Below, one piece after another: positions 25,301 to 41,094 of a DNA stretch of 64,000 nt; position 1 is the first letter of the stretch, and each line of letters opens with the position of its first letter. Where the stretch lies: NCBI RefSeq assembly GCF_026626705.1, contig NZ_JAPNKC010000001.1, positions 11,556,001 through 11,620,000 on the forward strand, read 5' to 3'. The position numbers and the translations under genes were made by a program. The stretch comes from Pyxidicoccus sp. MSG2 (GTDB lineage Bacteria > Myxococcota > Myxococcia > Myxococcales > Myxococcaceae). The notes under the pieces are model-generated. The model saw nothing but the letters and a program-made list of their open reading frames with translations. It made no database searches and was not told where the DNA came from.

Positions 25301-27985
25301 GGTGCCGCTTGCCGTCAGGAGCGCGCCCGGCAACGCGCCCCCCGGCGAGGAGGAGGGCTCCAGCCAGTAACGCTGGCGCTCGAAGGGGTAGGGCGGCAGC
25401 GACACGCGCAGCCGCTTCGCCCGGCCATTGAAGGCCCTCCAGTCCACCTCCACGCCTGCCTGCCACGCCTTGCCCACCGCCTCCAGCAGGACTGGCACGT
25501 CGCGCTCGCGCTCCAGCGCGTGCGGCAGCGTGGGCGACACCACCACGCCCGTGGCCCGCTCCGGGTGCTGCAGCGCGAAGGTCGTCAGCGCGTTGCCGGG
25601 GCCCACCTCCAGCACCAGCCGGTCCGCCTTCCGCAGCAGCTCTGTCACACCCTGCGAGAAGCGCACCGCGCCGCGCAGGTGCCGCGCCCAGTACGCCGGG
25701 TCCGTCGCCTCTTCGGCCTGCAGCGGCTTGCCGGTGAGGTTGGAAATCACCTCCAGCTTCGGCGCCTTGCGCTCCACCGCGCGCACCTTCCGGGTGAACT
25801 CCTCCAGGATGGGGTCCATCATGGACGAGTGGAAGGCGTGCGACGTCTGCAGCCGCCGCGCCTTGAGGCCGCGCTCCTCGACGCGCCGCTCGAAGGCTTC
25901 CACAGCCGCGAGGGGGCCGGCCACCACGCAGCGGCCGGGCGCATTCACCGCGGCCAGCGACAGCTCCTGGCCCAGCAGCGACAGCACCGCCTCCTCCGCC
26001 AGGGGTACTGATGTCATCGCCCCCGCGGGCAGGCTGGCCATCAACCGGCCGCGCTCACACACCAGCGTCACCGCGTCCGCCAGCGAGAAGACGCCCGCCA
26101 GGCACGCGGCCACGTACTCGCCAATGCTATGGCCCATCATCACGCTGGGGCGGATGCCCCAGTGCATCAACATGCGGGCCAGCGCGTACTCCACCGCGAA
26201 GAGGGAGGGCTGAGTCCACTCAGTGGCCTTGAGCTTTTCGTCGGCGCCCGCACCATCGCCCATGACGAGGGCGCGCAAGTCAGCCCCTCGCACGGCGCGC
26301 ACGTGCTCGGCGCATGCACCGAAGTGCTCGCGGAAGACGGGCTCGCTGCGGTAGAGGCCGGCGGCCATGCCCGCGTACTGCGAGCCCTGCCCGGAGAAGA
26401 GGAAGGCCACCGAGGGACGCTGGGCGGCCTGCTGGCGCGTCGGCAGTCTCTCTGGTGTACAGAGAGCGGTGAGTGCGTCCTGCGCGTCACGCACGAGAGC
26501 GAAGCGGCGGTGGGTGAAGTGCTGGCGTCCCGTCTGCAGCGTGTACGCCACGTCCCCCATGTGCAGGTCCGGCAGTTCGCTCAGGTGCTCGGCGAGATTG
26601 TCGGTGGCCCGCTGCAGCGCCCCGGCCGTGCGCGCGCTGAGCACCAGGAGCTGGTAGGGCTCCGCGGGCGTGGACGCCTCCGGGGGCGGGGCCTCCTCCA
26701 GGATGACGTGCGCGTTGGTGCCGCCGATGCCCAGCGAGGACACGGCCGCGCGCCGGGGCCCGCCCTGGCTCTCCCACGCGCGCGTCCTATCATTGACGAA
26801 GAAGGGGCTCTCCGGCAGCTCCAGTGCCGGGTTGGGACGCTTGAAGTGCAGGCTGGGCGGGATGACGCGGTCCTTCAGCGCCCGCGCCACCTTGATGAGT
26901 CCCGTCACGCCGGACGCCGCGTCCAGGTGGCCCACGTTCGTCTTCACCGAGCCGATGGCGCAGAACTGCTTCCTGCGCGTGGACTTGCGCCACGCCTTCG
27001 TCAGGCCCTGCAGCTCGATGGGGTCGCCCAGCCGTGTCGCGGTGCCGTGGGCCTCGACGTAGCCAATGGTGTCGGGCTCGACGCCGGAGTTGCCCAGCGC
27101 CTCCAGGACGACTTCGGAGACGCCCTCCATGCTGGGCGCGGTGAATCCGGCCTTGAGACTGCCGTCGTTGTTGATGGCGGTGCCGAGGATGACGGCATAG
27201 ACGTGGTCACCGTCCTCCAGCGCGCGGTCCAGCGGCTTGAGCACCACGCAGCCCACGCCGCTGCCGAAGAGGGTGCCGGTGGCATCCGCGTCGAAGCTGC
27301 GGCAGTGGCCATCCACGGAGGCCACGCCCCCATCCGTGTGCATGTAGCCGTACCGGGTGTGGACGAGCACGGACGCGCCGCCCACGAGGGCGACGTCACA
27401 CTCCTCGTTGAGCAGGGCCTGACACGCGACGTGGGTGGCGACCAGCGACGAGGAACATGCGGACTGGACGAGGTGGCTCGGACCGCGGAGGTTGAGCTTG
27501 TAGGACACCCGCGTCGTCAAATAGTCCTTGTCGTTGGCCAGCTGGAGCTGGAGCGGGTCGGTGGCAAGTGCCACCGGGTTGCGCATCAGGTTGTAGAGCA
27601 GGTACGTGTCCATCGCCGCGCCGGCGTAGACGCCGACGCGCCCGGGCACGCCCTGGGGGTTGTAGCCCGCGTCCTCCAGCGCCTCCCACGCGCATTCCAG
27701 GAAGTGGCGATGTTGCGGGTCGAGCAGCGCCGCCTCCTTCGGAGGAATGCCGAAGAAGGTGGCGTCGAAGTGCTCCATCTCCGTGAGGAAGGCGGCGGCC
27801 TTGACGAACTTCGGATGGGAGGCGAGCTCGGCGGGGACACCGCGATTGCGTAGCTCCTCTTCCGTGAAGAACGTCACCAACTCGGTACCGTCCCGCACCT
27901 GACGCCAGAACTCCTTGATGCTGTCTGACTTCGGGTAATGCCCGGCGATGCCGATGATGGCAATCTCAGTTCCGCTGCGGCTCAT
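1..27985 (-). CDS. Giant hybrid PKS-NRPS, at least 9,328 residues (3' end beyond window)
   Basis: Starts at ATG 27985 (MSRSGTEIAIIGIAG, a KS start). I found no stop in this frame down to position 1. The frame is confirmed by carrier and catalytic motifs all in phase: KS Cys at about residue 177, AT Ser 620, carrier Ser at about 963, 2043, 3555, 4612, 5687, 6743, 7791 and 8862, and the last HHxxxDG at 821-826. Order: KS-AT-ACP, C-A-PCP-E, six C-A-PCP modules, then a C domain cut by the edge. It would elongate the chain delivered by the upstream PKS (29192-34879), adding one C2 unit and at least seven amino acids. No thioesterase is in view, so the gene or a following one must continue leftwards. 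It is the last gene seen in the operon, 54 bases after the unrecognised protein. The RBS before 27985 is weak. Substrate calls are predictions from hand-read codes. Confidence 0.93.
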   Translation of the reverse strand, partial: MSRSGTEIAIIGIAGHYPKSDSIKEFWRQVRDGTELVTFFTEEELRNRGVPAELASHPKFVKAAAFLTEMEHFDATFFGIPPKEAALLDPQHRHFLECAWEALEDAGYNPQGVPGRVGVYAGAAMDTYLLYNLMRNPVALATDPLQLQLANDKDYLTTRVSYKLNLRGPSHLVQSACSSSLVATHVACQALLNEECDVALVGGASVLVHTRYGYMHTDGGVASVDGHCRSFDADATGTLFGSGVGCVVLKPLDRALEDGDHVYAVILGTAINNDGSLKAGFTAPSMEGVSEVVLEALGNSGVEPDTIGYVEAHGTATRLGDPIELQGLTKAWRKSTRRKQFCAIGSVKTNVGHLDAASGVTGLIKVARALKDRVIPPSLHFKRPNPALELPESPFFVNDRTRAWESQGGPRRAAVSSLGIGGTNAHVILEEAPPPEASTPAEPYQLLVLSARTAGALQRATDNLAEHLSELPDLHMGDVAYTLQTGRQHFTHRRFALVRDAQDALTALCTPERLPTRQQAAQRPSVAFLFSGQGSQYAGMAAGLYRSEPVFREHFGACAEHVRAVRGADLRALVMGDGAGADEKLKATEWTQPSLFAVEYALARMLMHWGIRPSVMMGHSIGEYVAACLAGVFSLADAVTLVCERGRLMASLPAGAMTSVPLAEEAVLSLLGQELSLAAVNAPGRCVVAGPLAAVEAFERRVEERGLKARRLQTSHAFHSSMMDPILEEFTRKVRAVERKAPKLEVISNLTGKPLQAEEATDPAYWARHLRGAVRFSQGVTELLRKADRLVLEVGPGNALTTFALQHPERATGVVVSPTLPHALERERDVPVLLEAVGKAWQAGVEVDWRAFNGRAKRLRVSLPPYPFERQRYWLEPSSSPGGALPGALLTASGTSDASGDTEPLAASGEPPATPEGNRPELPVAYTAPRDELEKALGALWTELLGVHPIGIHDSFFELGGDSVIGLQLIGALRSRWRVELAVRQLFESPTVAQLTEQVRSRQHAQPAVSLPPPVAGRREGPLPLSSAQQRLWFIDHLQPGSAFYNIPAILRIEGPVDEAALRRAFDALVQRHEALRTTFASQEGQAVQITHPPAPVPLPVVDLQALPEAAREGEARRLALEELGRPFDLGTGPLLRATLLRLEGQRHVLALVMHHIVSDGWSMGVLIREMATLYLTFRAGQTPSLPALPIQYADYALWQSGWLTRGEVLEKQLAYWKQQLAGAPAALELPTDFPRPPEQSFRGAALPVHLSRTLSEAVKELARQQGATPFMVLMAAWQALLHRYSGQDDIVVGSPIAGRRHAELEGLIGFFVNTLVLRTQPGRAASFRALLAQARDVTLGAYAHQDVPFEKLLEELQPARDLGRNPVFQVVFVLQNAPQPALELPGLKLAPVDLDPGISRFDLELALFPSEEGFHGHLTYDTALFTRATTSRIAGHLRVLLESAVASPDAPLATLPLLSPEERRQLLRGFNATRDTFAADTCLHTLFEAQAARTPGAIAVVFEDQRLTYAELEARANRLAHHLRSLGVGPEVPVGIAVERSLELVVGLMAILKAGGAYLPLDPAYPKDRLAFMCEDTRVPVVLTQRHLRDGLPTGNARVLCLDEPSPAWAHAPAHAPRSDARPHNLAYIIYTSGSTGRPKGAQLEHAQVVRLFRATDAWFDFGPRDVWTLFHSYAFDFSVWELWGALLYGGKLVVVPFEVSRSPVDFHALLRREGVTVLNQTPSAFRQLIHHEERTGESGGLALRYVIFGGEALEFASLKPWYARHAENAPRLVNMYGITETTVHVTYRPLAEVDAREARGSDVGVPIPDLQVYVLDEHLQPVPVGVPGEMYVGGAGLGRGYLGRPELTAQRFIPDPFSTTPGARLYRSGDKARWREDGSLEYLGRLDFQVKIRGFRIELGEIEAALLAYPGVRETLVLAREDAPGHKRLAAYVVPAPPAGTAGGGTSALDVAELRSHLQQRLPDYMVPSAFVLLEAMPLTHNGKVDRKALPAPDASRSEVRANFVAPRDEVEQRLADIWAAVLGQERVGIHDNFFELGGDSIISLQVVARARQAGLLLSARHMFQHQTVARLALVAKPAAAPVGEQGPVTGAVPLSPIQHRFLQPGVVDPHHFNQCVLLATRQPLTATVLEQACQHLVAHHDALRLRWLRDESGTWRQENASPEEARFHLEEVDLTTVAAGQQPSALEAHAAGFQARFDLGRPPVLRAALYHLGGGQQRLLLVMHHLAVDTFSWRVLVEDLESACLQLQQGRAVALPTKTTSFQAWARRLTDLARSEALRAEAPLWLEAVRLDVPRLPTDASGPDTQASGREVSASLEVEETRLLLQVVPGAWRAHIDDVLLAALSQALAEWTGQPRVGVHLEGHGRQEELLGDVDLSRTVGWFTSLVPLWLELPGGGTSGDGLRAVRDARQRLPRQGVGFGLLKWLGPPELASRLQALPVPEVAFNYLGQVDASATASRLFHLVSEPVGRTVSPATSREHALEINASVLEGRLRLAFHYGAHRHTPATIEALARRFLHHLRTLISERHGEDARRFTPGDFPLAALSRPALDLLLQQAGPDVEDVYPLSSLQQGLLFHALMAPESTAYFEQAAWTVGSSLEPRAFVDAWRASVQRHPVLRTSFHWQGLETPLQLVHSRAELPYEELDWSGLPEAEQRSRFEQLMREHRERGFALDRAPLMRLTAVRLGGDTVRFLWSHHHLLLDGWSIGLLLQDVAALYAAAAAGRELPPQPRLPYRAYIEWLAGRNASNDEAWWRAYLDGFASPTPLPADTHAPTASGERASHTVIEQDLSTEVTAAIQRFSRAHPITLHTLVLAAWAFVLSRHSGEEDVVFGNTVSGRPTEELPGVEEMVGLFINSLPVRVRVPSPATPLVSWLQALQARQLEQRQHEHTPLARIQSWSQVPRGAPLFESLLVLENYPRDASLGTSTLSVRDLALFEHTHYPITLMVIPGDALRVRLIVEESRFERGSLPRLLEHWRLALEGLVTAERVGDLRLQTGAERRQVLVDWNRTGPTPPQDGALHFLFEAQSERTPDATALVVGTQRLSYRQLEERSNQLAHHLRSLGVRPEVPVAVCLERTPELVVALLGILKAGGAYVPLDPSYPADRIAFTREDSRSPVLVTQHSLAEGLRMAGTHQVLLDGFAAVAHHPTLRPSRLNSPYHLAYVLYTSGSTGRPKGVALEHRSAVAFVHWALATFSHEQLSGVLAATSVCFDLSVFELFVPLACGGRVYLADNALSLPSLPAAQEVTLVNTVPSAMAELVRMKALPSSVRTVNLAGEPLPSVLAQALYSSGSVHGVYNLYGPTEDTTYSTYCLVPHDSALPPSIGRPLAGTQAYVLDSHGHPQPPGVPGELFLSGAGLARGYLRRPDLTASHFVPDPFSSTPGARMYRTGDKVRWKPDGTLEYLGRLDFQVKLRGFRIELGEVEDAVRSLPSVRDVAVLVREDVPGDKRLVAYLVQDSAFDVAALRAHLQKRLPAFMVPSAFVLLPALPLTPNGKLDRKALPAPESSVGSSTHVAPRNEAEKLLAALWSEVLRVERVGVHDNFFELGGHSLLATQVVSRVRQAFQRELNLRAFFEAPTVAGLAERLGAAALAWAPALIPVPRTGNPPLAFAQQRLWFIEQLRPGTPTYNLPAALRMEGPLDVEALRRAFDALVRRHEVLRTTFRDESGSPVQLIHPPAAFPLAVEVLSSPPEDEARRRAAHEATLPFDLARGPLLRATLLRLGEQRHVLLLTMHHIVSDGWSMGALVRDMAALYQAFHEDRPSSLPELPVQYADYALWQREWLQGEALESQLAWWQEQLSGAPRALELPTDHPRPPVQSTRGASLPVHLPRPLASALEALCRREGVTPYMALLAALQALLSRYTGQDDIVVGSPVAGRERTELEGLIGFFINMLPLRTRLSARSSFQALLAQVRDTALDAFAHQAVPFERLVDALHLERDLSRPPLVQVVFALQNTPMPTLESGGLTLTPMGLESHTSKFELMLSLEETADGYRGILEYSTDLFETQTAARMLGHLGVLLETAVTRPELAVGALPLLPEAERRRIVQEWNDTAGDYPRELHLHDLFTAQARHTPDAVAAELGDATLTYRELHLRSNRLAWHLLSLGVGPEQKVAFCLERGFDLLVAMLGVLKAGAAYVPIDPEYPTDRAAFMLRNSGASILLTHERLKAGFPTEELLILCLGEGGLDLGTGREDTPVTTVRPDNLAYIIHTSGSTGRPKGVSVRHGPAVNLIHWVNTTFGVDASERLLFVTSPCFDLSVYDVFGILAVGGTIVIATEKDLKDPERLASLLRERRITFWDSAPAALQQLVAHFGDGGPSLRLVFLSGDWIPLTLPDAIRARFPNARVTSLGGATEATIWSNFFRIGALEPTWTSIPYGRPITHARYYVLDDHLQPQPVGIAGDLFIGGECLADGYASAPALTAERFIPDPFNPSAGARMYRTGDRARFFSDGNIEFLGRADQQVKVRGFRIELGEIEAVLAEHPSVREVVVDARGPARGERHLVAWLVARPDESLPTVSELRRWVTRKLPEYMVPSAFLPLEAIPVTSNGKLDRKALPEPDGARPALEREFVAPSTPMEQALAAIWAQVLEIDQVGVHDNFFELGGHSLLATRVSARVRESLKVELPLRELFETPTVAQLALRLGQDRGPASSGQSEQSALATAASTRLPAIERQPRTEPVPQSFAQQRLWFLDRLAPGAATYNIPAALRIEGALDISALRASLEALVRRHESLRTTFDTVDMQSVQRIHEQARVDLPLVDLGTLPEALRDAEVQRLTDEEGHRPFDLVAGPLFRTALLRLCPERHVLLVTQHHIISDGWSLAVLVRELAATYQALRSGQEPTLPELPVQYADYALWQRDWLRGDALRAQLDFWSQQLAGAPPSLDLPTDRPRPAVQTPHGATRAFHLPAFLSQGLKALALRHGATPFMMLLAGWQLLLSRYSGQQDIVVGSPVAGRTRPELEGLIGLFINTLALRSRIDPHESFLELLARVKQTALDAFAHQEVPFEKLVNTLQLPHDTSRSPLFQTTFTYQNTPELTLRLPGLTLELVDVPLRTVKFDLSLSAQEGASGFEGYLNYNTDLFDASTAERMVRHWSTLLESLVAAPEAALATHSLLSQAEQRQVLVEWNPAAGRHDTPIHVLFGEQAARTPSAVALVDGGTTLTYAELDTRSNQLARHLGASGVGRGTRVGVCLERSLELVVSLLGILKAGAAYVPVDPTYPAERIALLLREARVGVLVTREELADELPLGQDVLPLCVDADRERIRSRAQEPMGTLEMGGDDLAYVMFTSGSTGTPKGVCIPHRGVVRLVRDTSFMRFGPEETFVLLAPVSFDASTLELWGALLHGARLVLAPARTTSLEEIASLLVSHRVSTLWLTAALFEQMAQHQPQALAGVRQLLAGGDVLPASRVREHLARLPSDATLINGYGPTENTTFSATHLMRPGDTVPPSVPIGRPIAHSSTFVLDEALRPVPVGLAGELFVGGEGLAWGYLHRPELTAERFIPHPFSSEPGARLYRTGDRVRWRGDGTLEFLGRNDFQVKLRGFRIELGEVVEQLRQHPRVQDAAATLHEVAGDKSLVAYIVTEPDAAPSQEELREYLHSRVPEYMVPAFILTLDALPLSPNGKVDRRALPAPGSERPQLRTHFEAPRTPAEQALATVWSEVLGVDAVGIDDSFFDLGGDSIRSIQVVARVRALGFELAMMDLLQNGTIRALAPRLKASAASEPALEALPPFALYTGSRDALPEDVEDAYPATALQAGMIFESELHGVVGMYHDLFSLHLEMELDEALLRQCVQELLERHAILRTSFDLGSHTEPLQRVHRNVTPPLVLEDLRAMPAEQQDGWLRRWAEEERCRPFDWSRAQLLRFFVHRRADTTLQLTLIFHHAIMDGWSLSVVFSELFQRYVELRKGIVRRPPALSASFQQYVALERRAIASAQSERYWRELIANAETPPASAPAQAREFHQEVVRVPTPLQEALQRVAREAGVSIRTVLLAAHLRVQSVMEGGPGVITGVVANGRPEVLDGERMVGLFLNSVPFHLELRGGTWLELVQAVSRQEAEMNPHRRYPMALLQRQWGGQRLVQTLFNFVHFHVAGGVSRLEGVRFVEEPWGAAWTELPRGATFMQNPDTGTLSLSLQHTGAPEDAEQLQRLGRTYLRALESLAAHPEHRYEQESLLAGEEQQRLLEAWNDTRAPLAEGLRLPAAFERQVALTPGAPAVRFGGEELSFARLNARANQLAWHLRSLGVGPDVRVALCFERSVDMVVALLGVLKAGGAYVPLEPGWPVQRRELALKDCAAPILLASRQVRATWCPSAVEVLGVESDVEPLASRPMDDVAPIGSEDDLAYVIYTSGSTGTPKGVMVTHRSVLNLHTALKRTVYASLPAGARVSVNAPLVFDASVQQWVQLLDGHCLCIVPEDARQNPEALVAWARQQRLDALDCTPSLLKVLLDAGLLDGDIAPAVLVPGGEALDEATWTRLATARRTRAFNVYGPTECTVDATTFAVREQTQPTLGTPLLNVRAYVLDAHLRPLPVGAPGELFIAGAGLARGYLDRPALTAERFLPDPFDTLAGARMYRTGDRVRRRVDGTLEFLGRIDFQVKLRGFRIELGEIEAALRRHASVQQALVLLREDVPGNARLVAYVTPAVDTTPLRERLRQHLPEYMVPAAFVALESLPLTPNGKLDRKALPAPEATSLGAEDAFVAPRSPEEERLASIWSQVLRVERIGVHDNFFALGGHSLLATQVVSRLRAALGVELPLGDLFEAPTVARLAERLATRGRAATGPALVPVERTGPLPLSFAQQRLWFLEQLQPGSATYNVPSVVRLEGELDTDALDRALRALALRHEVLRTTFQVHGDEPVQHIHSEGLTTLSLISLEDVPAESRTGEARKRAFAEAWRPFDLARGPLMRTLLLRLEPRHHLLLLTLHHIVSDGWSVGVLVRDLGELYRAFREGQVPVLPALPVQYADYAVWQRQWLRGESLRRELAWWRERLTGAPAALELPTDRPRPAVQTFNGAAVPVTLPRAVTEAVKALAQKHGATDFMVLLAVWQLLLSRYSGQDDVSVGSPIANRTRAETEGLIGFFVSTLVLRARIDTRASFRELLAQVRATTLAAYEHQDVPFERLVEELQPQRDLSRGPLFQVMFVLQNAPGSQLSLPGLKLELEAVEDTTAKFELGFSLEERDGGFAGTLGYNTDLFDEATVARMARHFVALVESVATDAERPVSTWSLQTGAERRQVLVDWNRTGPTPPQDGALHFLFEAQSERTPDATALVVGTQRLSYRQLEERSNQLAHHLRSLGVRPEVPVAVCLERTPELVVALLGILKAGGAYVPLDPSYPADRIAFTREDSRSPVLVTQRSLAEGLRMAGTHQVLLDGFAAVAHHPTLRPSRLNSPYHLAYVLYTSGSTGRPKGVALEHRSAVAFVHWALATFSHEQLSGVLAATSVCFDLSVFELFVPLACGGRVYLADNALALPSLPAAQEVTLVNTVPSAMAELVRMKALPSSVRTVNLAGEPLPSVLAQALYSSGSVHGVYNLYGPTEDTTYSTYCLVPHDSALPPSIGRPLAGTQAYVLDSHGHPQPPGVPGELFLSGAGLARGYLRRPDLTASHFVPDPFSSTPGARMYRTGDKVRWKPDGTLEYLGRLDFQVKLRGFRIELGEVEDALRSLPSVRDVAVLVREDVPGDKRLVAYLVQDSAFDVAGLRAHLQQRLPAFMVPSAFVLLPALPLTPNGKLDRKALPAPDMTAASRSFIAARTATEEKLAALWAEVLRVERVGVHDNFFELGGHSLLATQVVSRVRAAFGVELPLRALFEAPTLGELARRIDSTGRSVSSAPPLVPAPRTGALPLSFAQQRLWFLEQLQPGSAAYNLPTALRMEGALDVATLERAFTELVRRHESLRTTLHDEAGEPVQRIHPPAPFPVSLVDMTSLPEASREAEALRLTREEAGRPFHLARGPLLRATLLRLNPHQHVLLLTMHHIVSDGWSMGVLVREMAALYQGLRAGQMPVLSELPVQYADYAVWQRAWLQGQMLEAQLAWWRQQLSGAPAALELPTDFPRPVAQSSRGATVPVQLSRELTGALKNLARQEGATPFMVLLAGFQALLHRYSGQDDVVVGTPIAGRRFAELEGLIGLFLNTLALRTRFDDAPSFRTLLGRVRDATLGAYAHQDLPFEKLVEELQPQRDLGRSPLFQVMLVLQNAPSEPAAGLARREDGLSLQPLALESHTTKFDLDLHLFEQPESFVGQLGYSTDLFERSTVERLVANLRVLLEGVVAHPDARVGELPLLTAAERQQVLVDFNATARDFAPQRSVHALIEQQAALHPERPAVASEGRTLTYAQLEARANQLAWHLRTLGVRPESCVALGLERSVDTVVALLGVWKAGGAYAPLDPTQPAERLRMMVAEVSAPVVVTESHHAAAFSGTSARLVLLDVEADALSRQRIDTPPCDVSPWNVAYVLFTSGSTGRPKGVAVAHAQLLNYVQSVTENQGLGECRSFALVSTFAADLGNTVLFPALCTGGLLHVLSQERAASPAGVAEYFQQHPVDCLKIVPSHLAALLTAAEPRHVLPRKRLVLGGESSTWELLSQVRALTHECEVFNHYGPTETTVGVLTGRVELPPAQPLPATVPLGRPLANTRLYVLDGSLLPVPRGVPGELFIGGAQVTRGYLGRPELTAERYVPDAYASEPGARMYRTGDRVRWLPDGRLEFLGRVDFQVKVRGFRVELGEIEAALRADPRIAEAVVVARADGGAEPRLVAYVTGRAGAQGVEVDAVRRALRERLPEYMLPWALLVLDALPLTPNGKVDRKALPAPQGATAATSAEHIAPVTPTQERLAAIWAELLRVVTVGARDDFFELGGHSLLATRVVAHVRAAFGIELPLRALFEHRTLEALASRIDGLTSSGPSRGLPPLKRAGRERPLPLSFSQQRLWFLDQLQPDSATYNVPSALWLEGTLDTTALERGLTELVRRHESLRTTFSIKEGQPIQVVHPDSRLPLSVMDLRELPGEARETEASRLATEDALRPFDLARGPLLRVTLLRLAERRHLLLLGMHHIISDGWSRGVLVRELGALYRAFAVGQPSPLPELPVQYADYAVWQRDWLQGDVLERQVAWWKQQLSGAPPHLELPTDHPRPAALSSRGTVVPMRLSRELSESLNALAKREGATPFMVLLAGFQLLLSRYSGQEDVVVGSPIAGRRHAETEGLIGFFVNTLVLRAQLDGRASFLQLLRQVRETTLGAYEHQDVPFEKLVEELQPVRDLSRTALFQALFVLQNTPTRELALPGLSLRPMETDTSTAKFELTLSLSETSDGFVGGLQLSSDLFTEAT
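1310..4520 (-). other. Module 8: C-A(atypical pocket)-PCP
   Basis: The C domain has MHHIVSDGW. The A domain keeps TSGSTGRPKG and HYGPTETTV, but core A4 reads STFAADLGNTVLFPAL instead of FDASxxE, so the usual Asp235 is not in its normal place. Other pocket positions read K (278), V (299), G (301), H (322), V-G (330-331). I cannot name the substrate. PCP GGHS Ser is at about residue 8862. Confidence 0.75.
4520..7660 (-). other. Module 7: LCL-type C-A(Ala-like)-PCP
   Basis: The C domain has LHHIVSDGW. The A domain has the same pocket code as module 3 (D-L-F-N-N-A-L-T-Y) and nearly the same DNA, so it should take the same substrate, probably Ala. PCP GGHS Ser is at about residue 7791. Confidence 0.8.
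4755..6288 (-). repeat. A-domain direct repeat, copy 1 (module 7)
   Basis: About 1,534 bases match 17463-18996 at a constant offset of 12,708 bases (4,236 codons), same strand and frame. A hand count over the span gives 26 mismatches and no gaps, about 98 percent identity. Similarity drops sharply at both ends, in the C-A linker and just after the A10 region. The unit is thus one adenylation domain. Neighbouring C and PCP sequences are much less alike. Confidence 0.9.
7660..10825 (-). other. Module 6: DCL-like C-A(Gln)-PCP
   Basis: The C domain opens with EDVEDAYPATALQAGMIF, the style of D-accepting C domains, and has FHHAIMDGW. The A domain has VFDASVQQW, LDALDCTPS, VLVPGGEAL and NVYGPTECTVD, giving D-A-Q-D-V-G-V-V-D, one substitution from the Gln code DAQDLGVVD. 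The PCP is FFALGGHS (Ser 6743). Confidence 0.78.
10830..14050 (-). other. Module 5: C-A(Val-like)-PCP with GGDS carrier, no E domain
   Basis: The C domain has QHHIISDGW. The A domain has SFDASTLELW, TLWLTAALF, LLAGGDV and NGYGPTENTTF, giving D-A-L-W-L-G-G-T-F, close to the Val code DAFWIGGTF. The carrier is FFDLGGDSIRS (Ser 5687), the E-partner form, yet after about 40 residues of linker the next domain is a condensation domain, not an epimerase. Confidence 0.75.
14050..17200 (-). other. Module 4: LCL-type C-A(Cys-like?)-PCP
   Basis: The C domain has MHHIVSDGW. The A domain has CFDLSVYDVF, then FWDSAPAAL, VFLSGDW and LGGATEATIW, giving D-L-Y-D-F-S-L-I-W. This is near Cys codes such as DLYNLSLIW, with two differences (278 and 299). 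The GGATEATIW form is shared by Cys and Gly activators, so Cys is only the best guess. The C domain is an ordinary condensation type, not a heterocyclisation domain. PCP GGHS Ser is at about residue 4612. Confidence 0.65.
17230..20330 (-). other. Module 3: DCL-type C-A(Ala-like)-PCP
   Basis: The C domain opens with DVYPLSSLQQGLLF, typical of condensation domains that accept a D-residue, and has SHHHLLLDGW. The A-domain pocket reads D-L-F-N-N-A-L-T-Y, a code I associate with Ala. PCP GGHS Ser is at about residue 3555. The A domain lies in a 1.53-kb segment almost identical to that of module 7. Confidence 0.8.
17463..18996 (-). repeat. A-domain direct repeat, copy 2 (module 3)
   Basis: Partner of 4755-6288 (about 98 percent identical, no gaps by hand alignment). 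Both copies keep the same specificity code. The pattern fits recent duplication or gene conversion of an A domain inside one gene. Confidence 0.9.
20330..24960 (-). other. Module 2: C-A(Thr)-PCP-E
   Basis: The C domain has HHIVSDGW (about residue 1155). The A domain carries TSGSTGRPKG and FDFSVWELW; reading the pocket gives D-F-W-N-I-G-M-V-H, the classical Thr code. NMYGITE replaces the usual YGPTE. The PCP has GGDS (Ser 2043), the form usual before epimerases. The E domain has MHHLAVDTFSW (about residue 2227) and the late motif FNYLGQ. The chain therefore probably carries D-Thr or D-allo-Thr here, which fits the DCL-type C domain that follows. Confidence 0.85.
25000..27985 (-). other. Module 1 of giant synthase: KS-AT-ACP, malonyl-type AT, no reductive domain
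   Basis: KS (residues 5-430) has the active-site context VQSACSSSLVATH (Cys 177), the HGTA His and the NVGHLDAASG His. AT (about 525-800) has GQGSQ, GHSIGEY with Ser 620, and TSHAFHS; HAFH is the malonyl-CoA signature. After the post-AT linker YPFERQRYWLEP comes an Ala/Ser/Pro-rich linker and directly an ACP (FFELGGDSVIGLQ, Ser 963). No KR, DH or ER is present, so the beta-keto group should stay unless another enzyme acts. This intact AT is the only one in the window. Confidence 0.9.
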
Positions 27986-28039: not shown

Positions 28040-29125
28040 CTAGCCGGTGCCCAGCAGGGGCCCGGAGGGTTGGGAGAAGTCCAGGTGCTGGTGAATCACC
28101 TGCACGCTTCCCAGGTTGCGTAGGGGCAGCAGGCCGGGCTCGATGAGCGACCGTGGCGCCTCCGCGATTCGCTCCACCTGGCCGGGGGTGAGCACGGTGT
28201 CATAGAGCTCGCCGCCGCGGTCCTCGAGGACGCCGGTGCCAATCCAGAACTTGGCCCGTGAGGACTTCGTGCTCCCGATGCCGATGTTGCTCGGGCCCCT
28301 CGAGACGAAGACCATGATCTTGTCCTCGCCCACCAGGAACTCGGCCGTCCGGTCCATGGTGAAGTTGCCCACCATCTCGTAGACGGCGCCGCGTAGGACC
28401 TTCTCATCCTTCTCGGCCTCCGCCAGCCGGGTCCAGTCCTCGGCTCCCATCCACTTGATGTTCTGCCGGGAGCACGTCAGCAGGATCTTCCGCTGCGACT
28501 CCGGGAAGTCGTTGAACCCCGGAGCAATCATCTCGTATCGCTCGTCCAGCAGGGAGAAGTACTCCTCACGGCTGTAGAAGTCGTCTTCCCGGACGATGGA
28601 GAGCTTCACGTTCGGCGGCAGGTGCTTGCCGAACGCGTCCAGCAGCACCTGGAAGGAGTCGACGTAGCGCTGCACATCGTCGGCGGGGAGGTTGTCATGG
28701 CGCTGGGGCAGCAGCGTGTACATGAAGTACTGCAGGTGCACGCCAGGGGCGTACGCCGCCGCGATGCCGCTCAGGTAGTGCAGCATGTGGGCCATGGAGA
28801 AGAACTCGGCCCAATCGACCTCGGGAGCGGAGGGCAGGCGCCAGATCTTGTAGCCGCCCATCGGGTGGACCAGGCGCAGGGGCTTCTGGTCCCGGACGGC
28901 GATGTCCACGGCCCGAGCGATGTTCTTCTGCGTGTCCGGGTTGACGGACCACTTGCGGAAGTTCTTCGACAGCAACTGCTTGAGGACGAACGCCTGCGGT
29001 CCTTCGCTCTTCAGGAGGCTCTCTTCATGCGGGGTCAGTGAGCGGATCGCGGACTTCTCCAGACGCTCGCGAAGATGCTGGCTGACGCGCTCAGGGGTAG
29101 GGCGTTGGACTGTAATGGGTGTCAT
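28040..29125 (-). CDS. Unrecognised 361-residue protein between the two PKS genes
   Basis: I do not recognise this family. ATG at 29125, TAG at 28040. The sequence is soluble-looking, with no signal peptide or membrane segment. Its most striking part is HPMGGYKIWRLPSAPEVDW followed by AEFFSMAHMLHYLSGIAAAY and PGVHLQYFMYTLLPQRHDN, at about residues 85-150. These look conserved and could form an active site (His, Tyr, Trp, Asp, Glu), but that is inference. The middle has DDFYSREEYF and a TCSRQNIKWMGAEDW stretch; the tail is QVIHQHLDFSQ. The start codon lies 66 bases after the PKS stop and the stop 54 bases before the giant synthase, so it is surely co-transcribed. Its position suggests a tailoring or chain-modifying role during polyketide extension. 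I considered isonitrile synthases and found no convincing motif. Confidence 0.8.
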   Translation of the reverse strand: MTPITVQRPTPERVSQHLRERLEKSAIRSLTPHEESLLKSEGPQAFVLKQLLSKNFRKWSVNPDTQKNIARAVDIAVRDQKPLRLVHPMGGYKIWRLPSAPEVDWAEFFSMAHMLHYLSGIAAAYAPGVHLQYFMYTLLPQRHDNLPADDVQRYVDSFQVLLDAFGKHLPPNVKLSIVREDDFYSREEYFSLLDERYEMIAPGFNDFPESQRKILLTCSRQNIKWMGAEDWTRLAEAEKDEKVLRGAVYEMVGNFTMDRTAEFLVGEDKIMVFVSRGPSNIGIGSTKSSRAKFWIGTGVLEDRGGELYDTVLTPGQVERIAEAPRSLIEPGLLPLRNLGSVQVIHQHLDFSQPSGPLLGTG

Positions 29126-29191: not shown

Positions 29192-32100
29192 CTATTCCCC
29201 CTCGCTCCCGCGCCGGGCAATGGCCTTGGCGCGGCGGCGCGCTCCGCGGCTGGAGCTGTCCTCGGCGGGCGGGGCGGAGGCGCCCGTGTCGCCAGCGGAC
29301 TCTTCACCGCCGCCCGCGCTGCCCCCCAGGAGCGTGGACAGGGCGCCCAGGGTGGGGGCCTCGAAGAGCTGCACCACGGCCACCTCCTTGCCCAGCCTCC
29401 GCTTGATGCGGGAGACAATCTGGATGGCCATCACCGAGTCGCCACCCAGGTCGAAGAAGTTGTCGTGGAGGCCCACGCGCTCCAGGCCGAGCACCTCGCG
29501 GAGGATGTCCCCGACCTTCTCCTGCATGGGCGTCTCCGGCGCCTGGTAGGGCACCGGCAGCTCGGGCCTCGGGCGCGTCGCGCGCTGGGGCGCGGCGGCC
29601 GTCTCGGCCTCCACCTGCTCCTCGGCCGCCTTCGTGGGCGCGGTGTGCACCAGGCCGCGCGCCAGCAGCGCTTCGAGGTCTCGCGTGGACACCACGAGCT
29701 GCGGCATGTCCGTGCTCGCGAGCGCCCGGCGGAACAGCTCCACGCCCTCCTCGGGGGAGATGGCCTCCTGGCGGAGGATCTGCTGGAAGACGCTCTCTCC
29801 AGCGGACGCAGCCGGCATGGCGGCAGGGGCCTTCGCGGGGGTGGCAGCGGCAGCCACAGCGTCACGGCTCGCCAGGTTCTTGTACATGGCGCCCACGTCG
29901 TTCACACGCTTGAGCGAGAACTCGGTGATTTCCACCAGCTCGCGGCCCGTGTCGTCGAGGATGCGGATGTCGAAGGACGGCGTCTCGCTCCGGTTGGAGC
30001 CCTCGCCGTGCGAGCGCGTGTGCACGTGGATGCGGCGGGTGAACGGATGCCGCACGACGAGGCGCTTGTACGAGTACGGCATGTACGGCACCGCGCCGAG
30101 GATGAAGTCACGCCCGGTGCCGATGGACTTGTCCAGCATGGACGGGTGCAGCTTCATGACGTCCAGGTCGGAGGCGAACTCGGCGGGCAGCTCCAGGGTG
30201 GCGAGCACCTGCTGCTCGCCCCACCGCACGCGCCGGACGCACTGCCACCGGGGGCCGTGGTCCTCGTCGTGCGAGTCCTCGTCGGTGAACTCCTTCACCT
30301 TCGCGCAGGCCGCGGTGATGGCCGCCAGGTCGTGCTGCCGCGCGGGAGTGGTGGGGACGAGCCGGGCCCGTCCCATCACATGCCGGGTGAGGCCCGTGCC
30401 GTCCGTGCCCAGGCTGCTGACCTGGAAGCTCCAGCCCTCCGCGCCCTCGTCCGTCAGCTCCAACCGCGCCACGCGCTGGTCGCCCAGGCGCACCGACAGC
30501 GGGGTGAGGAAGTAGACGTCGGAGATCTCCAGGTCCTCGTGCCGCAGCTTCGGGGCGAACGCCGCCCGCACCATCTCCAGGTACGTGGTGCCGGCAATGA
30601 CGGGGTTGCCGAGGATGCGGTGGTCGTCGAGCACCCAGTGCGTCTCGACGCGGAACACCGTCTCGTACACCTCGTGCCCGGGCGCGGAAGGCATCCGCTT
30701 CGCCAGCAGCGGGTGGCCCAGGGCCACGGGCTCGCCGGTGACGGCCGAGGGCGTGGGGAGCGCCTCGACGCGCGGAGCGGCCTTCGCGGCGGCGGCGCTG
30801 GCGAGCATTCCCACGTCCCGCCACGAGCACCAGTCGATGGACACGGTGAAGGTGGACGAGGTGCGCGCCTTGTGCTGCGCCCAGGCATCCTGGAAGGCGT
30901 TGGCCGCGACGTAGTCCGCCTGGCCGAAGCCGCCCAGCACCGAGGTGCGCGACGCGCAGTAGACGACGAAGTCGAGAGGTTGGCCCTCCAGCAGCTCGTC
31001 CAGCACCAGCGTGCCCCGCACCTTGGGGGCGAGCACCCGCTGGGCCACCTCGTCCGTCTTGAGCTGCAGCGCGCCACCCGCCGGCACGCCGGCCGCGTGG
31101 ATGACGCCGTGCACGGCCCCGAAGCGCGCGCGCACGTCGGCCAGGACTTCAGCCATGCGCGCCCGGTCCGTCACGTCGGCGGCGACGGTCATCACCTCGG
31201 CGCCGCCGCGCTCCAGCTCGCGGATGCGGCGAACCACCTGCGCGGTGGGCGAGTCCCCTTCCGAAGCCAGCAGCGCGTTCCACTTCGAGCGCTCCGGCAG
31301 CGGCTTGCGGCCCAGCAGCACGAGCTTCGCGCCGCCCGCCGAGCGCGCGACGTCCGAGGCGAGCACGAGGCCGATTCCGCCCAGGCCACCGGTGACGAGG
31401 TACACACCCCCGGGGCGCAGCCTCGGCGAGCGGCCGGACTCCGTGGCCTCCAGCCGCACGGGCTCATGGGTGCGCGTCCAGCGGTGCCGCCCGCGCCACG
31501 CGGTGACGGTGTCGCGCGCGCCGGACTCCACCTCGGACAACAGACTTCCGACGAGCCGGAGCTCCTCGGCGCTTCCCGGCGTGGGCAGGGGCACGTCGAT
31601 GAGGCGGCACTTCACGTTCGGATACTCCTGGCCGATGACCAGGCATGGTCCGAGCAGCGTGGCCTTCTCCGGGCACAGGGTTTCCTCCCCCGTCACCTGG
31701 AAGACCTGGCTGGAGAGCACCTGCAGCTCCACCTGCGCCGTGGCCTGATGGGCGCCCATCGCCTGGGCCAGGTACATCAGGCTGCGGAAGCCGGACTCCT
31801 CCACGCGCGGCAGCGACTCCAGCCGCGAGCCGGCGGCGCGCTGCGGGTCCACGCTCCACAGGTGGATGATGCGCGAGGGCAGCTTCCCCCGGGCCTTGAG
31901 GTCCTGGAGCAACTGCCGGTAGTCAGCGGGCGTGCGCGGGTCCACCGAGTAGCGGCCCTCCGCCGGGGCGCCGCCGTACGTGCCCCGCTCGACGCGCAGC
32001 ACGGTGTGGCCGCGCTGCTCCAGCCGGGTGGCCAGCAGCTCGCCCAGGCCGAAGGCGTCGGAGAAGAGCAGCACCACCTCCGCGTCGCGCGCGAGCGCGG

Positions 32101-34879
32101 TGGGCGGCGCCGTCCGCTTCCACGAGGGGACGAAGAACCAGTCCGCGGGGTCCACGCGGCGCGGGGGCAGCGTGTCCTCCTGCCTGGGGCTCGCGGCGGC
32201 CTGCTTCGTCGGCTCCAGCCAGAGGCGCTGGCGCTCGAAGGGGTACTGCGGCAGCGGGACGCGCCGCCGGCTCGCACCGGCGTGGTGTCCGGCCCAGTCC
32301 ACCTCGCCGCCGTACATCCACAGGCGCGCGAGCGCGGCCATCAGCGCGCGCGGCTCCGAGGGCTCCTTCGTGTCCTGCACGAGCGAGCCCAGCACCACCT
32401 GCCGCGACGACTTCGCGGGGTGCAGCCGGGCGATGTTGAGCCACGTGCGGCCCGGGCCCACCTCCACCAGCAGCCGGTCCGGCTCCTGGAACAGGGCCTC
32501 GATTCCCGGCGAGAGGCGCAGCGTGCGGCGCAGCTGTGAGGCCCACCACGCGGGCTCCGCCAGCTCCGGGCCGCTCGCCCACGCGCCGGTGACGCCGGAG
32601 AACAGGGGCACCTCGGGCGCACGGAAGGAGACGCGGCGCAGCGCCGCGGTCAGCTCCGCGGCGAGCCCGTCCACCGCCGGAGACTGGAGCGCCCTGTCGC
32701 CCGCGAGCCGCCGGAAGGTGGCGCCGCGCCGGCGCAGCTCCGCCTCCAGCGCTTCGATTCCGGCGCGCGGCCCGGACACGGTGCACACCGACGGCCGGCC
32801 CACCCACGCCAGCGACAGGCCGTGCGCGGGGAGCAGTCCCTCCAGCTCCGCCTCGGGCAGCATGACGAGCGTCATGGCGCCCTCGGGCAGGCGCTTCACC
32901 AGGCGGCTGCGCAGGGCCACCATGGTGATGGCGTCCTCCAGCGACACCACGCCCGCGACGCAGGCGGCGGCATACTCGCCGATGCCCTCGCCCAGCACCG
33001 CGCGCGGGCGCACGCCCCAGTCCATCCACGCGCGGGCCAGGGCGTACTCCACCGCGAAGAGCGCGGGCTCGGCCACGTGCGTGTGCGAGAGCGCCTCCGC
33101 CGCGTTGGACTCGGCGCCCAGGCGCGGGAAGAGGATGGGGCGCAGGTCCATGCCCAGCTCCGCGTCGAGCTTCTTCAGGCAGGTGTCCAGGTGCTCGCGG
33201 AAGACGGGCTGCGCGTCGTACAGCTCGCGCGCCATGCCCAGGTGCTGGCTGCCCACGCCCGGGAAGAGGAAGGCCATGGCGCGGGCATTGCCGTCCACCC
33301 GGCCGGTGAAGGTGCGGTCCGTGGGCAGGCGCTCCAGCACGTCCACCGCGTCCGCCAGCGTGCGGCAGGTGAGGGCGCGCCGGAACTCGAAGGGCTTGCG
33401 CCCCAGTTGCAGCGTGTACGCCACGTCCCCGAGGTCCAACTCCGGGTGCGCGGCGAGGTACTGGCGCAGCTCGTCCGTCCGCGTCTCCAGCGCGCTCGCG
33501 GTGCGCGCCGACAGCGTCAGCGTGTGCCAGCCGTCGGCCTGGCGCCGGGGCTCCGGGGCCGGGGCCTCCTCCAGCACCAGGTGCACGTTGGTGCCGCCGA
33601 TGCCGAACGAGCTGACACCCGCGCGGCGCGGATGCGTCTCCGGCCGCTGCCACGGCGTCAGCTTCGCATTCACGTGGAATGGGCTCTGCGCGAAGTCGAT
33701 GGCCGGGTTGGGGGACTCGTAGTGGAGCGTGGGCGGCAGCTGCTTGTGCGCCAGGCACAGCACCGTCTTGATGAGCCCGGCGATGCCGGCCGCCGTGTCC
33801 AGGTGGCCGATGTTGCTCTTCACCGAGCCGAGCGCGCAGAACTGCTTGCGCTGCGTCTTCGCGCCGAAGGCCTGGGTGAGCGCTTCGACTTCAATCGGGT
33901 CGCCGAGCACCGTGCCGGTGCCGTGGCACTCGACGTAGCCCACCGTGTCGGGGTGCACGCCCGCCACCGCCAGGGCCATGCTGATGGCGCGGCGCTGGCC
34001 CTCGGAGGAGGGCGCGGTGTAGCCGACCTTGGAGGCGCCGTCGTTGTTGGCCGCCGAGCCCCGGATGACGGCGTGGATGGTGTCTCCCGCCGCGAGCGCG
34101 TCCTCCAGCCGCTTGAGCACCACCACGCCCGCGCCGCTGCCGAAGACGGTGCCCTTCGCCTTCGCATCGAAGGGGCGGCAGTGCCCGTCCGGCGAGGCCA
34201 CGCCTCCCTCCTGGAAGAGGTAGCCCATGGTCTGCGGCACGCGCACGGAGACGCCGCCCGCCAGCGCCATGTCCGTCTGGTACGAGAGCAGCGCCTGACA
34301 CGCCAGGTGCACCGAGGACATGGCAGTGGAACAGGTGCTCTGCACGGTGAAGGCGGGGCCGCGCAGGTTGAGCTTGTAGGCCGTCAGCGTGGCCAGGTGG
34401 TCCCCGCGGTTGGCGATGGCCGCCTGCAGGAAGCCGTGCGACTCGATGAGCTGCCGGTTGGAGGCGAGGTTCTCCAGCAGGTAGGTGTTGATGCTGAGCC
34501 CGCCGAAGACGCCGATGTCCCCGTCGAACCGCTCCGCGTCGTAGCCCGCGTGCTCCAGCGCGTGCCACGCCACCTCCAGGAACACGCGCTGCTGCGGGTC
34601 GGTGATTTGCGCCACGCCCGCGTTCATCCCGAAGAACGCGGCGTCGAACAGCTCCACACCATCCAGGGCCGCGTTGGCCTTCACGTAGGAGGGGTCCGCC
34701 AGCAGATCGGGGGACACGCCCGCCTCGCGCAGCTCCTCCTCGGAGTAGAAGCGGATGGACTCCACGCCCGCGCAGAGGTTGCGCCAGAACGTGTCCACGT
34801 CCCCCGCGCCGGGGAAGCGCCCCGCCATGCCGACGACGGCGATTCCTTCGAGTGCGTTCTGCTCCACGTCGCTGCTCAC
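29192..34879 (-). CDS. Type I PKS: KS-AT(inactive)-KR-DH-ACP
   Basis: 1,895 residues. GTG start at 34879 overlaps the stop of the upstream NRPS by four bases (GTGA), so the two are translationally coupled. KS (residues 12-435): VQSTCSTAMSS (Cys 183), ECHGTGT, NIGHLDTAAG. AT-like domain (about 540-820) lacks the catalytic pair: GEGIGEY replaces GHSxGEY (Gly 632) and GDRALQS replaces the HAFHS segment. A structural KR half follows, then the catalytic KR (about 1150-1340) with GGLGGIG and YCASRTS...QADYVAAN. A DH-like domain (about 1400-1660) comes after the KR, unlike the usual DH-before-KR order; it has HRILGNPVIAG (His kept, Pro changed to Ala) and HPSMLDKSIG (Asp kept). ACP: FFDLGGDSVMA (Ser 1815). 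It should extend the acyl-Glu chain by one C2 unit and reduce it; dehydration is uncertain. Malonyl must come from another AT, perhaps that of the giant synthase. Confidence 0.93.
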   Translation of the reverse strand: MSSDVEQNALEGIAVVGMAGRFPGAGDVDTFWRNLCAGVESIRFYSEEELREAGVSPDLLADPSYVKANAALDGVELFDAAFFGMNAGVAQITDPQQRVFLEVAWHALEHAGYDAERFDGDIGVFGGLSINTYLLENLASNRQLIESHGFLQAAIANRGDHLATLTAYKLNLRGPAFTVQSTCSTAMSSVHLACQALLSYQTDMALAGGVSVRVPQTMGYLFQEGGVASPDGHCRPFDAKAKGTVFGSGAGVVVLKRLEDALAAGDTIHAVIRGSAANNDGASKVGYTAPSSEGQRRAISMALAVAGVHPDTVGYVECHGTGTVLGDPIEVEALTQAFGAKTQRKQFCALGSVKSNIGHLDTAAGIAGLIKTVLCLAHKQLPPTLHYESPNPAIDFAQSPFHVNAKLTPWQRPETHPRRAGVSSFGIGGTNVHLVLEEAPAPEPRRQADGWHTLTLSARTASALETRTDELRQYLAAHPELDLGDVAYTLQLGRKPFEFRRALTCRTLADAVDVLERLPTDRTFTGRVDGNARAMAFLFPGVGSQHLGMARELYDAQPVFREHLDTCLKKLDAELGMDLRPILFPRLGAESNAAEALSHTHVAEPALFAVEYALARAWMDWGVRPRAVLGEGIGEYAAACVAGVVSLEDAITMVALRSRLVKRLPEGAMTLVMLPEAELEGLLPAHGLSLAWVGRPSVCTVSGPRAGIEALEAELRRRGATFRRLAGDRALQSPAVDGLAAELTAALRRVSFRAPEVPLFSGVTGAWASGPELAEPAWWASQLRRTLRLSPGIEALFQEPDRLLVEVGPGRTWLNIARLHPAKSSRQVVLGSLVQDTKEPSEPRALMAALARLWMYGGEVDWAGHHAGASRRRVPLPQYPFERQRLWLEPTKQAAASPRQEDTLPPRRVDPADWFFVPSWKRTAPPTALARDAEVVLLFSDAFGLGELLATRLEQRGHTVLRVERGTYGGAPAEGRYSVDPRTPADYRQLLQDLKARGKLPSRIIHLWSVDPQRAAGSRLESLPRVEESGFRSLMYLAQAMGAHQATAQVELQVLSSQVFQVTGEETLCPEKATLLGPCLVIGQEYPNVKCRLIDVPLPTPGSAEELRLVGSLLSEVESGARDTVTAWRGRHRWTRTHEPVRLEATESGRSPRLRPGGVYLVTGGLGGIGLVLASDVARSAGGAKLVLLGRKPLPERSKWNALLASEGDSPTAQVVRRIRELERGGAEVMTVAADVTDRARMAEVLADVRARFGAVHGVIHAAGVPAGGALQLKTDEVAQRVLAPKVRGTLVLDELLEGQPLDFVVYCASRTSVLGGFGQADYVAANAFQDAWAQHKARTSSTFTVSIDWCSWRDVGMLASAAAAKAAPRVEALPTPSAVTGEPVALGHPLLAKRMPSAPGHEVYETVFRVETHWVLDDHRILGNPVIAGTTYLEMVRAAFAPKLRHEDLEISDVYFLTPLSVRLGDQRVARLELTDEGAEGWSFQVSSLGTDGTGLTRHVMGRARLVPTTPARQHDLAAITAACAKVKEFTDEDSHDEDHGPRWQCVRRVRWGEQQVLATLELPAEFASDLDVMKLHPSMLDKSIGTGRDFILGAVPYMPYSYKRLVVRHPFTRRIHVHTRSHGEGSNRSETPSFDIRILDDTGRELVEITEFSLKRVNDVGAMYKNLASRDAVAAAATPAKAPAAMPAASAGESVFQQILRQEAISPEEGVELFRRALASTDMPQLVVSTRDLEALLARGLVHTAPTKAAEEQVEAETAAAPQRATRPRPELPVPYQAPETPMQEKVGDILREVLGLERVGLHDNFFDLGGDSVMAIQIVSRIKRRLGKEVAVVQLFEAPTLGALSTLLGGSAGGGEESAGDTGASAPPAEDSSSRGARRRAKAIARRGSEGE

Positions 34880-40041: not shown

Positions 40042-41094
40042 TCATCCCCGCGGCGGGCCGTCATGGGCCACGTCCGCCCAGCGCCTCGGGTCCGCCATGG
40101 CTACCACCACGCTGCGCTCGCCCTTGAAGGGCTGGCGACCGTGGCCCATCAGCATGTTGTCCAGCATCAGCACGTCGCCCTTGCGCCAGGGCACCGCCAC
40201 GCGGGCCTGCAGGTACGCGGCGCGCAGCAGCTCCAGCACCTCCGGCTCGATGGGCGCGCCATCGCCGTAGAAGGTGTTGTTGGGCATGTCCTCTTCGCCG
40301 TAGAGGGCGCGCAGGTGCGCCACCAGCTCCGGGTCCAGCGTGCTCACGTGGAAGAACGTGGCGTGGTTGAACCACGCCAGCTCCCCGGACGTCGGGTGCC
40401 GGGCCACGCAGCGGCGGGCCTGGCTGGTGCGCAGCCGGTCCTGCCCGAGCCACTGGAAGTCGATCTGGTTCTCCGTGCAGTAGCGCTCCACCTCCGCGCG
40501 CTCCCGCGTCTGGAAGGCCTCCTGCCACGACAGGCCCAGGCCCTCGCCGAAGTTGCGCACGTAGCGGTAGCCGCGGGCCATGAAGCGCTCCACCACCTCG
40601 CGCGGCAGCTCGCGGAGGATGCGGCGCGTGCAGGTGATGGGGGTGGCGCCCCCTTCCGCCGACGGGGTGATGCAGTGGAAGTAGATCTTCTGCGGGAACG
40701 TCAGGTTGTAGGACTGCTCCGTGTGCGGGAATATCTCCTGGTCCGACGGGTGCGAGGTGGACGTGTACACCTGGTCCTTGACCACCTCGCGCGGCGAGGA
40801 GCGCTCCGTGTAGGGCAGCGGCGAGCCCGACGTGGCGCGCACGAAGTCCGCGAAGCCGTCCACGCCCTCCATGCGGAAGCCGCGCAGCATCAGCCCGCCC
40901 ACGCGCGTCAGCTCCTCCTCCAGGTACGCGCGGTTCTCCTTCGCCCACTGCACCAGCTCCAGCCCCTCCACGCGGGGCTCGAGGATGAGCGGGTACGCCT
41001 CGCCGTCCAGCAGGCGCGTGGAAATCATCTCCGTCCGCGAGAGCTTCACGGGCCGGCGCGAGCGCGCGCCGAGCCCCGGCAGTGAGTCCTTCAT
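40042..41094 (-). CDS. SyrP/TauD-like Fe(II)/2-oxoglutarate dioxygenase B
   Basis: 350 residues. ATG 41094 overlaps the TGA of the FAAL gene by four bases (ATGA), which fixes the start although the frame is open further upstream inside the FAAL gene. Metal motif FPHTEQSYNLTFP (HxE), GGATPI, and C-terminal DNMLMGHGRQPFKGERS with the distal His and Arg. Similar in length and layout to dioxygenase A (38938-39990) but clearly diverged, suggesting an older duplication and possibly a different target residue. The role as a hydroxylase of carrier-bound amino acids or acyl chain is inferred from family and context. Confidence 0.9.
   Translation of the reverse strand: MKDSLPGLGARSRRPVKLSRTEMISTRLLDGEAYPLILEPRVEGLELVQWAKENRAYLEEELTRVGGLMLRGFRMEGVDGFADFVRATSGSPLPYTERSSPREVVKDQVYTSTSHPSDQEIFPHTEQSYNLTFPQKIYFHCITPSAEGGATPITCTRRILRELPREVVERFMARGYRYVRNFGEGLGLSWQEAFQTRERAEVERYCTENQIDFQWLGQDRLRTSQARRCVARHPTSGELAWFNHATFFHVSTLDPELVAHLRALYGEEDMPNNTFYGDGAPIEPEVLELLRAAYLQARVAVPWRKGDVLMLDNMLMGHGRQPFKGERSVVVAMADPRRWADVAHDGPPRG

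Follow-up and report, generated by a model that had tools for sequence, protein, structure and literature searches.

A conserved polyketide synthase module whose integrated acyltransferase has lost its catalytic serine and histidine, with putative malonyl supply from another enzyme

In the 64,000-nucleotide stretch of Pyxidicoccus sp. MSG2 DNA analyzed here (the window; G000:C1:11556001-11620000, from a genome of 13.34 Mb), the modular polyketide synthase (PKS) protein P0001 carries an integrated acyltransferase (AT) domain, AT0, in which the catalytic Ser and His are replaced by Gly632 and Gln732, and both replacements are fixed in all seven orthologues identified. P0001 comprises ketosynthase (KS), AT0, ketoreductase (KR), dehydratase (DH) and acyl carrier protein (ACP) domains, with the DH placed after the KR, and it precedes a giant nonribosomal peptide synthetase (NRPS)-PKS that opens with a KS-AT-ACP module containing an intact AT. 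Its gene lies on the minus strand, which an earlier sequence-only reading of this DNA had not given, and begins with GTG at position 34879. Taken together, the evidence makes it probable that AT0 is dead, that the module nevertheless extends the chain, and that its ACP is given malonyl by another enzyme. Under this proposal, AT0 would fold as an AT and be retained as part of the KS-AT body, P0001 would go on extending the chain, and its ACP would obtain malonyl from elsewhere, with the intact AT of the giant synthase as the most likely supplier.

Loss of catalytic residues in a full-length acyltransferase domain

The sequence-only reading had claimed that AT0 lacks both catalytic residues, and the motifs on which it relied were all read as described: AT0 has GEGIGEY, GDRALQS and GVGSQ where the first AT of the giant synthase has GHSIGEY, TSHAFHS and GQGSQ, and the codon of Gly632 is GGC (32984-32986, minus strand). 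A further replacement missed in that reading is Asn694 to Gly. All 40 of 40 comparison ATs, drawn from the same genome and its relatives, have His at position 631, Ser at 632, Asn at 694 and His at 732, and all four residues are replaced in 7/7 AT0 orthologues. The change to GVGSQ carries less weight, since ATs with both Ser and His intact also vary at that position. ATs also possess a carboxylate-binding Arg, and its equivalent, R657, is retained in the seven AT0 sequences.

AT0 is full length, as had been proposed, since the Pfam Acyl_transf_1 (PF00698) match covers residues 537-845 and profile positions 2-307 of 319 (143.7 bits). An AlphaFold model of the linker-AT-linker segment has a mean pLDDT of 88.3, and Foldseek template modeling scores, normalized to the query, are 0.83 against ZmaA-AT, 0.84 against CurL and 0.85 against ClbI; in the predicted model, the AT fold is complete. 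Alignments with ATs of known structure (ZmaA, SpnD and two ClbI constructs) are colinear through the Ser position, and GxSxG is absent from residues 531-850 in every orthologue, which together rule out a displaced Ser-His pair. In a survey of the genome, 23 Pfam AT matches were obtained, 21 of them with GHSxG; the two without it are AT0 and a truncated AT elsewhere. Judged by sequence, AT0 would be a pseudo-acyltransferase that is unable to form the usual acyl-enzyme.

Orthologues, age of the loss and selection

A search of 195 genomes from the phylum recovered orthologues of P0001 in seven, spanning three genera and an AT identity range of 65-100%, and the same seven genomes are among the matches listed when 96 family genomes were searched. 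Relative to the AT0 of the window (100%), identity is 92% in Myxococcus sp. RHSTA-1-4 (G019, L013), 82% and 81% in Corallococcus sicarius (G064, L014) and C. terminator (G071, L015), 81% in G065, 71% in G062 and 65% in G096, which represents a third genus among the carriers; the matches ranking next by E-value share 44-47% identity. All seven sequences have identical residues at the replaced catalytic positions and form one clade in a maximum-likelihood tree of 48 ATs (support 100/100). A single clade with the same replacements means that one old loss explains all seven. The tree and the 40-AT comparison leave out near-duplicates (L009-L011), truncated or partial ATs (L038, L039), a discrete AT (L037), duplicate AT0 rows (L044-L046, L015) and a row in the wrong frame (L059); FabD (L036) is in the tree and outside the 40 comparison ATs.

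Nei-Gojobori ratios of nonsynonymous to synonymous substitution (dN/dS) for AT0 in four pairs are 0.356, 0.330, 0.281 and 0.149, indicating purifying selection, and those for the KS of P0001 range from 0.03 to 0.23. A sequencing error or a recent pseudogene is ruled out, given that the state is common to 7/7 orthologues and dN/dS is well below 1. Across the seven proteins, invariant positions number 328/440 in the KS, 156/320 in AT0, 127/210 in the KR, 178/312 in the DH and 45/75 in the ACP. Of the 95 alignment columns at which the comparison ATs are conserved, 57 are retained in AT0, 22 are mixed, 9 are variable and 7 are fixed to a single new residue, the last group including positions 631, 632, 694 and 732. 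Within AT0, 35 of 39 motif positions, a set picked after the alignment had been seen, are invariant, compared with 121 of 281 elsewhere in the domain. The giant AT displays a similar contrast (32 of 34 versus 112 of 200) over residues 524-757, the span used because one contig stops there. The frozen pocket of AT0 is thus real by sequence comparison, and by itself no proof of a new function.

The remainder of the module and candidate suppliers of malonyl

The partner domains of AT0 retain their motifs in 7/7 orthologues, namely the Cys, HGTGT and N(I/V)GH of the KS, the NADPH motif and the Ser, Tyr and Asn positions of the KR, and the GGDS of the ACP, so that the remainder of the module looks functional by its sequence. 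If the module extends, malonyl would therefore be needed in trans, in agreement with the sequence-only reading. The DH is different: its His is kept in all seven, but the Pro and Gln of the usual motifs are replaced by Ala and Gly, the window sequences being HRILGNPVIA and LDKSIG. Dehydration is therefore uncertain, and the domain may be altered or non-dehydrating.

Of the 23 AT matches of the genome, the window contains only AT0 and the giant AT, both of them integrated. A discrete AT gene is thus missing from the window, and since AT0 itself is full length, the cluster is not a trans-AT PKS; the label of a mixed cis/trans arrangement given in the sequence-only reading remains reasonable. Elsewhere in the genome, two discrete ATs were recognized, FabD and an 809-residue protein; these names, together with those of the FabD neighbours, of the frames in L069 and L017 and of the gene after the module in G096, are readings by eye. 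FabD sits among genes that appear by eye to belong to fatty acid synthesis, and it has matches at 83-92% identity in the other six dead-AT genomes. The 809-residue protein, by eye an AT joined to a PfaD-like enoylreductase, has an intact AT (GGHSLGEY, SAPFHS) and is encoded at C1:11.10 Mb beside a large PKS gene. It has no orthologue at E ≤ 1e-30 in the six other genomes, where the same search returned FabD as the single match in G019 and FabD plus matches at 36-40% identity in the other five, and it is accordingly ruled out as the general loader. With no discrete AT in the window and no orthologues of the 809-residue AT, the likely loaders are the two enzymes originally suggested, the giant AT and FabD; both are possible, as the giant AT keeps its Ser and His motifs in 7/7 genomes and FabD occurs in all seven.

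The giant AT is favoured on three grounds: it belongs to the next subunit of the line, its motif is of the malonyl type, and it occurs together with the dead AT in 7/7 genomes. It is considered the most likely loader, at roughly even chances. It retains GHS and TSHAFHS throughout, and its HAFH motif marks malonyl-specific ATs (PMC6164871; here, as with the other papers cited below, statements refer to the portions of the source that were available). As far as the sequence stretches reach, the gene order FAAL-TauD-TauD-C-A-MT-PCP-module-P0003-giant (domain designations as in Table 1) is repeated in L013, L014, L015, L064 and L065. In G096, by contrast with this order, the giant synthase gene lies on a different contig from the module, in divergent orientation to the FAAL gene (G096:C492 and C773; L066, L098), and the gene after the module is tRNA-nucleotidyltransferase-like by eye. 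The pairing of a dead AT with a live giant AT survives this altered order, in a genome that is fragmented (1050 contigs, 86% complete).

As a separate observation, a second giant synthase, with 83% identity to the first 998 residues of the one in the window, was among the matches listed in G019 (G019:C82:32157-35147). No match to the dead-AT module was found in the 20 kb read upstream of it, where an NRPS-like frame is present.

Alternative explanations

Several observations weigh against loading of a still-extending module by the giant AT, or against the simplest account of why AT0 persists. The giant AT of G062 differs at the fourth residue of the GHSIGEY motif, and G096 demonstrates that adjacency of the giant synthase to the dead-AT module is not fixed. 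AT0 is constrained, yet less so than the working giant AT, for which dN/dS in the same four pairs is 0.084, 0.211, 0.194 and 0.121. The linkers flanking AT0 are weakly constrained, with ratios of 0.364, 0.842, 0.920 and 0.436 for the KS-AT linker (0.132, 0.222, 0.220 and 0.307 in the giant) and 0.728, 0.835, 0.702 and 0.149 for the post-AT linker, which disfavours a strictly architectural role. The earlier suggestion that AT0 was kept for structure is thus compatible with its retention, but in view of the linkers and of replaced positions fixed in 7/7 genomes, it is perhaps not the whole story. The dead pocket might instead have acquired a non-catalytic task, such as docking or binding the neighbouring AT or a carrier protein and so recruiting it; this would explain the fixation of E631, G632, G694, D728, R729 and Q732 in seven genomes of three genera, and we regard it as doubtful. 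Still less credible is a pocket that performs transfer or another reaction through different residues. The four fixed replacements and the excess of invariant motif positions would suit such activity, but AT0 has no nucleophile at the elbow, its invariant Ser residues, S544 and S733 among them, occupy positions where ordinary ATs carry Ser too, and conservation of core residues is expected anyway, as the comparable contrast in the giant AT illustrates; we consider this reading very improbable.

The remaining alternatives concern the source of malonyl or the need for it. FabD of the fatty acid synthase could charge the P0001 ACP, with the scheme otherwise unchanged; its genomic setting and its high identity among the dead-AT genomes are in keeping with this, and the malonyl transferase of Streptomyces coelicolor rescues an AT-null DEBS module 6 (PMC6164871). 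Its general presence, however, gives no reason why one module alone should have lost its AT, and FabD is a possible, clearly second candidate. True trans-AT supply, by a discrete AT dedicated to the module and encoded at another genomic locus, could be sought in the intact 809-residue AT protein, but that gene is about 480 kb from the cluster and, besides FabD, the other genomes offer only the distant matches described above, or FabD alone in G019, making this source improbable. About equally improbable is a non-extending module through which the chain is passed, its AT having died as unneeded. The dead AT0 and the likewise altered DH motifs (Pro to Ala, Gln to Gly, in 7/7) would fit such a module, but the motifs of the KS, KR and ACP are kept in all seven genomes, and the counts of invariant positions and the low dN/dS of the KS argue for continued use. 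An extending module loaded in trans, most likely by the giant AT, is the preferred reading.

Cluster layout and neighbouring genes

On the minus strand, the cluster runs from a starter protein read as FAAL-ACP-C (C, condensation domain) through two TauD-family oxygenases and the NRPS protein P0002 to P0001, P0003 and the giant synthase (Table 1). In P0002, which consists of condensation, adenylation (A), FkbM-type methyltransferase (MT) and peptidyl carrier protein (PCP) domains, the methyltransferase interrupts the adenylation region in its C-terminal portion. The condensation domain of P0002 lacks HHxxxDG in 7/7 orthologues, reading LPALCMDAF in the window (38521-38547, minus strand), and the terminal condensation domain of the starter protein keeps HHIAADG (42051-42071, minus strand). 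From their motifs, two successive subunits therefore each seem to contain one dead domain for which a neighbouring subunit has an intact equivalent.

P0003, encoded between the module and the giant synthase, was found at E ≤ 1e-6 in 6 of 195 phylum genomes, all of them dead-AT carriers, and was not found in G096 at this threshold; distant relatives occur on six Rhizobium plasmid records (27-32% identity). Of its four weak profile matches in the PDB, three are to isonitrile synthases (E 0.043-0.11), and an HHalign comparison with PvcA-family loci gave Prob 84 and E 7.7e-6, against Prob 0.04 for a negative control (PKS0 alignment), suggesting a remote similarity to PvcA-type isonitrile synthases; its AlphaFold model has a pLDDT of 38.7. 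A hidden trans-AT in P0003 is ruled out by the lack of any AT match, the isonitrile synthase likeness and its absence from G096 at E ≤ 1e-6.

Table 1. Features of the cluster in the window, with positions counted from the first letter of the window
Feature	Position	Strand	Basis or remark
P0001, PKS module protein KS-AT0-KR-DH-ACP, 1895 residues	29192..34879	minus	open reading frame and domain search
KS domain of P0001, Cys/His/His motifs kept	33716..34849	minus	Pfam and alignment
AT0, predicted catalytically dead AT, P0001 residues 531-850	32330..33289	minus	Pfam PF00698, predicted model
GVGSQ in place of GQGSQ, residues 541-545	33245..33259	minus	fixed 7/7
GEGIGEY in place of GHSxGEY, residues 630-636, His to Glu631 (GAG), Ser to Gly632 (GGC)	32972..32992	minus	
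VGRPS, Asn694 to Gly	32789..32803	minus	Gly694 fixed 7/7
GDRALQS in place of TSHAFHS, residues 727-733, catalytic His to Gln732 (CAG)	32681..32701	minus	
KR domain of P0001, NADPH motif and Ser/Tyr/Asn positions present	30815..31408	minus	catalytic positions assigned by motif
DH domain of P0001, His kept, HxxxGxxxxP ends in Ala, DxxxQ ends in Gly	29894..30715	minus	compared with the usual DH motifs
ACP of P0001, GGDS phosphopantetheine site kept	29327..29518	minus	Pfam and alignment
P0002, NRPS C-A-FkbM methyltransferase-PCP, upstream of P0001	34876..38892	minus	
Acyl-AMP ligase (read as FAAL)-ACP-C starter protein, C domain HHIAADG	41091..44585	minus	
P0003, unknown protein between P0001 and giant synthase	28040..29125	minus	remotely isonitrile-synthase-like, no AT match
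Giant NRPS-PKS, starts KS-AT-ACP, continues as NRPS	2..27985	minus	9328 residues in window, 11315-residue open frame in genome
Intact AT, first module of giant synthase (GQGSQ, GHSIGEY, TSHAFHS)	25562..26404	minus	proposed in-trans loader

Comparison with known systems

Dead integrated ATs are not without parallel in this genome and beyond. The truncated AT noted in the genome survey (C1:10652575-10653297, L069) is also integrated and has GRGVGEY at the site of GHSxGEY; unlike AT0, it is missing the small subdomain, and a search at E ≤ 1e-45 recovered it from 1 of 96 family genomes. The surrounding 1594-residue frame (L069 5989-10770, plus strand; G000:C1 about 10.651-10.656 Mb) reads by eye as KS-AT-MT-ACP-TE (TE, thioesterase) and belongs to another cluster. 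A tandem PKS frame of Paenibacillus bouchesdurhonensis (L017 8384-16057, plus strand) has a first AT that looks degenerate (GYYAGEY, shortened) and a second that keeps GHSIGEY and TSHAFHS. Colibactin PKSs reportedly may hold dead ATs served by ClbG, a lead only, for which no supporting passage was found in PMC5490422. Among other assembly lines, corramycin starts with FAAL-ACP-C-HAD-T, an architecture unlike that of this cluster (PMC10099666), and nothing on dead ATs was found in the available portion of the nemamide paper (PMC8363725).

Inactive ATs served by a partner are also known as discrete enzymes. In the tandem ATs PtxA, OzmM and KirCI, the AT1 halves are inactive (PMC5764310), and, as with AT0, an AT is retained after important residues have been replaced, its function being given to a partner AT. 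These, however, are discrete trans-AT enzymes with the dead and the live AT in one polypeptide.

Engineered modules provide evidence that borrowed loading can work. An AT-null DEBS module 6 regains function with either BryP or the malonyl transferase of S. coelicolor (PMC6164871), and inactivated ATs of auroramycin are rescued by Dszs AT (PMC6943886). The DEBS case resembles the present one in that a module without AT activity works once another AT loads its ACP, and differs in being engineered and dependent on a discrete AT, whereas AT0 is natural. The module of P0001 looks like a natural counterpart of such AT-null constructs, a cis-AT module that has used borrowed malonyl for long enough to be shared between genera. 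If this is true, routine loading of a carrier on another subunit by an integrated AT becomes directly testable with natural orthologues available. The cluster is also one that would be misread if its product were predicted from AT motifs.

The closest precedent is module 12 of irumamycin, in which the Ser of the GHS motif of AT12 is replaced by Gly, and for which a structural role and loading by the malonyl AT11 have been proposed (PMC11672594). Both cases involve an integrated AT of a modular PKS with a Ser-to-Gly change, a retained ACP and an intact malonyl-type AT in the adjacent module, the KS and ACP motifs being kept in P0001. They differ in that the helper AT of irumamycin shares a polypeptide with the dead AT and sits one module earlier, whereas the putative helper here is on a following, separate protein. 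The dead AT12 has been called methylmalonyl-specific, and the AT0 loss is common to seven genomes. A dead integrated AT with loading by a neighbour has thus already been proposed elsewhere, and the cluster described here adds a dead site that is deeply conserved and whose residues are exactly fixed.

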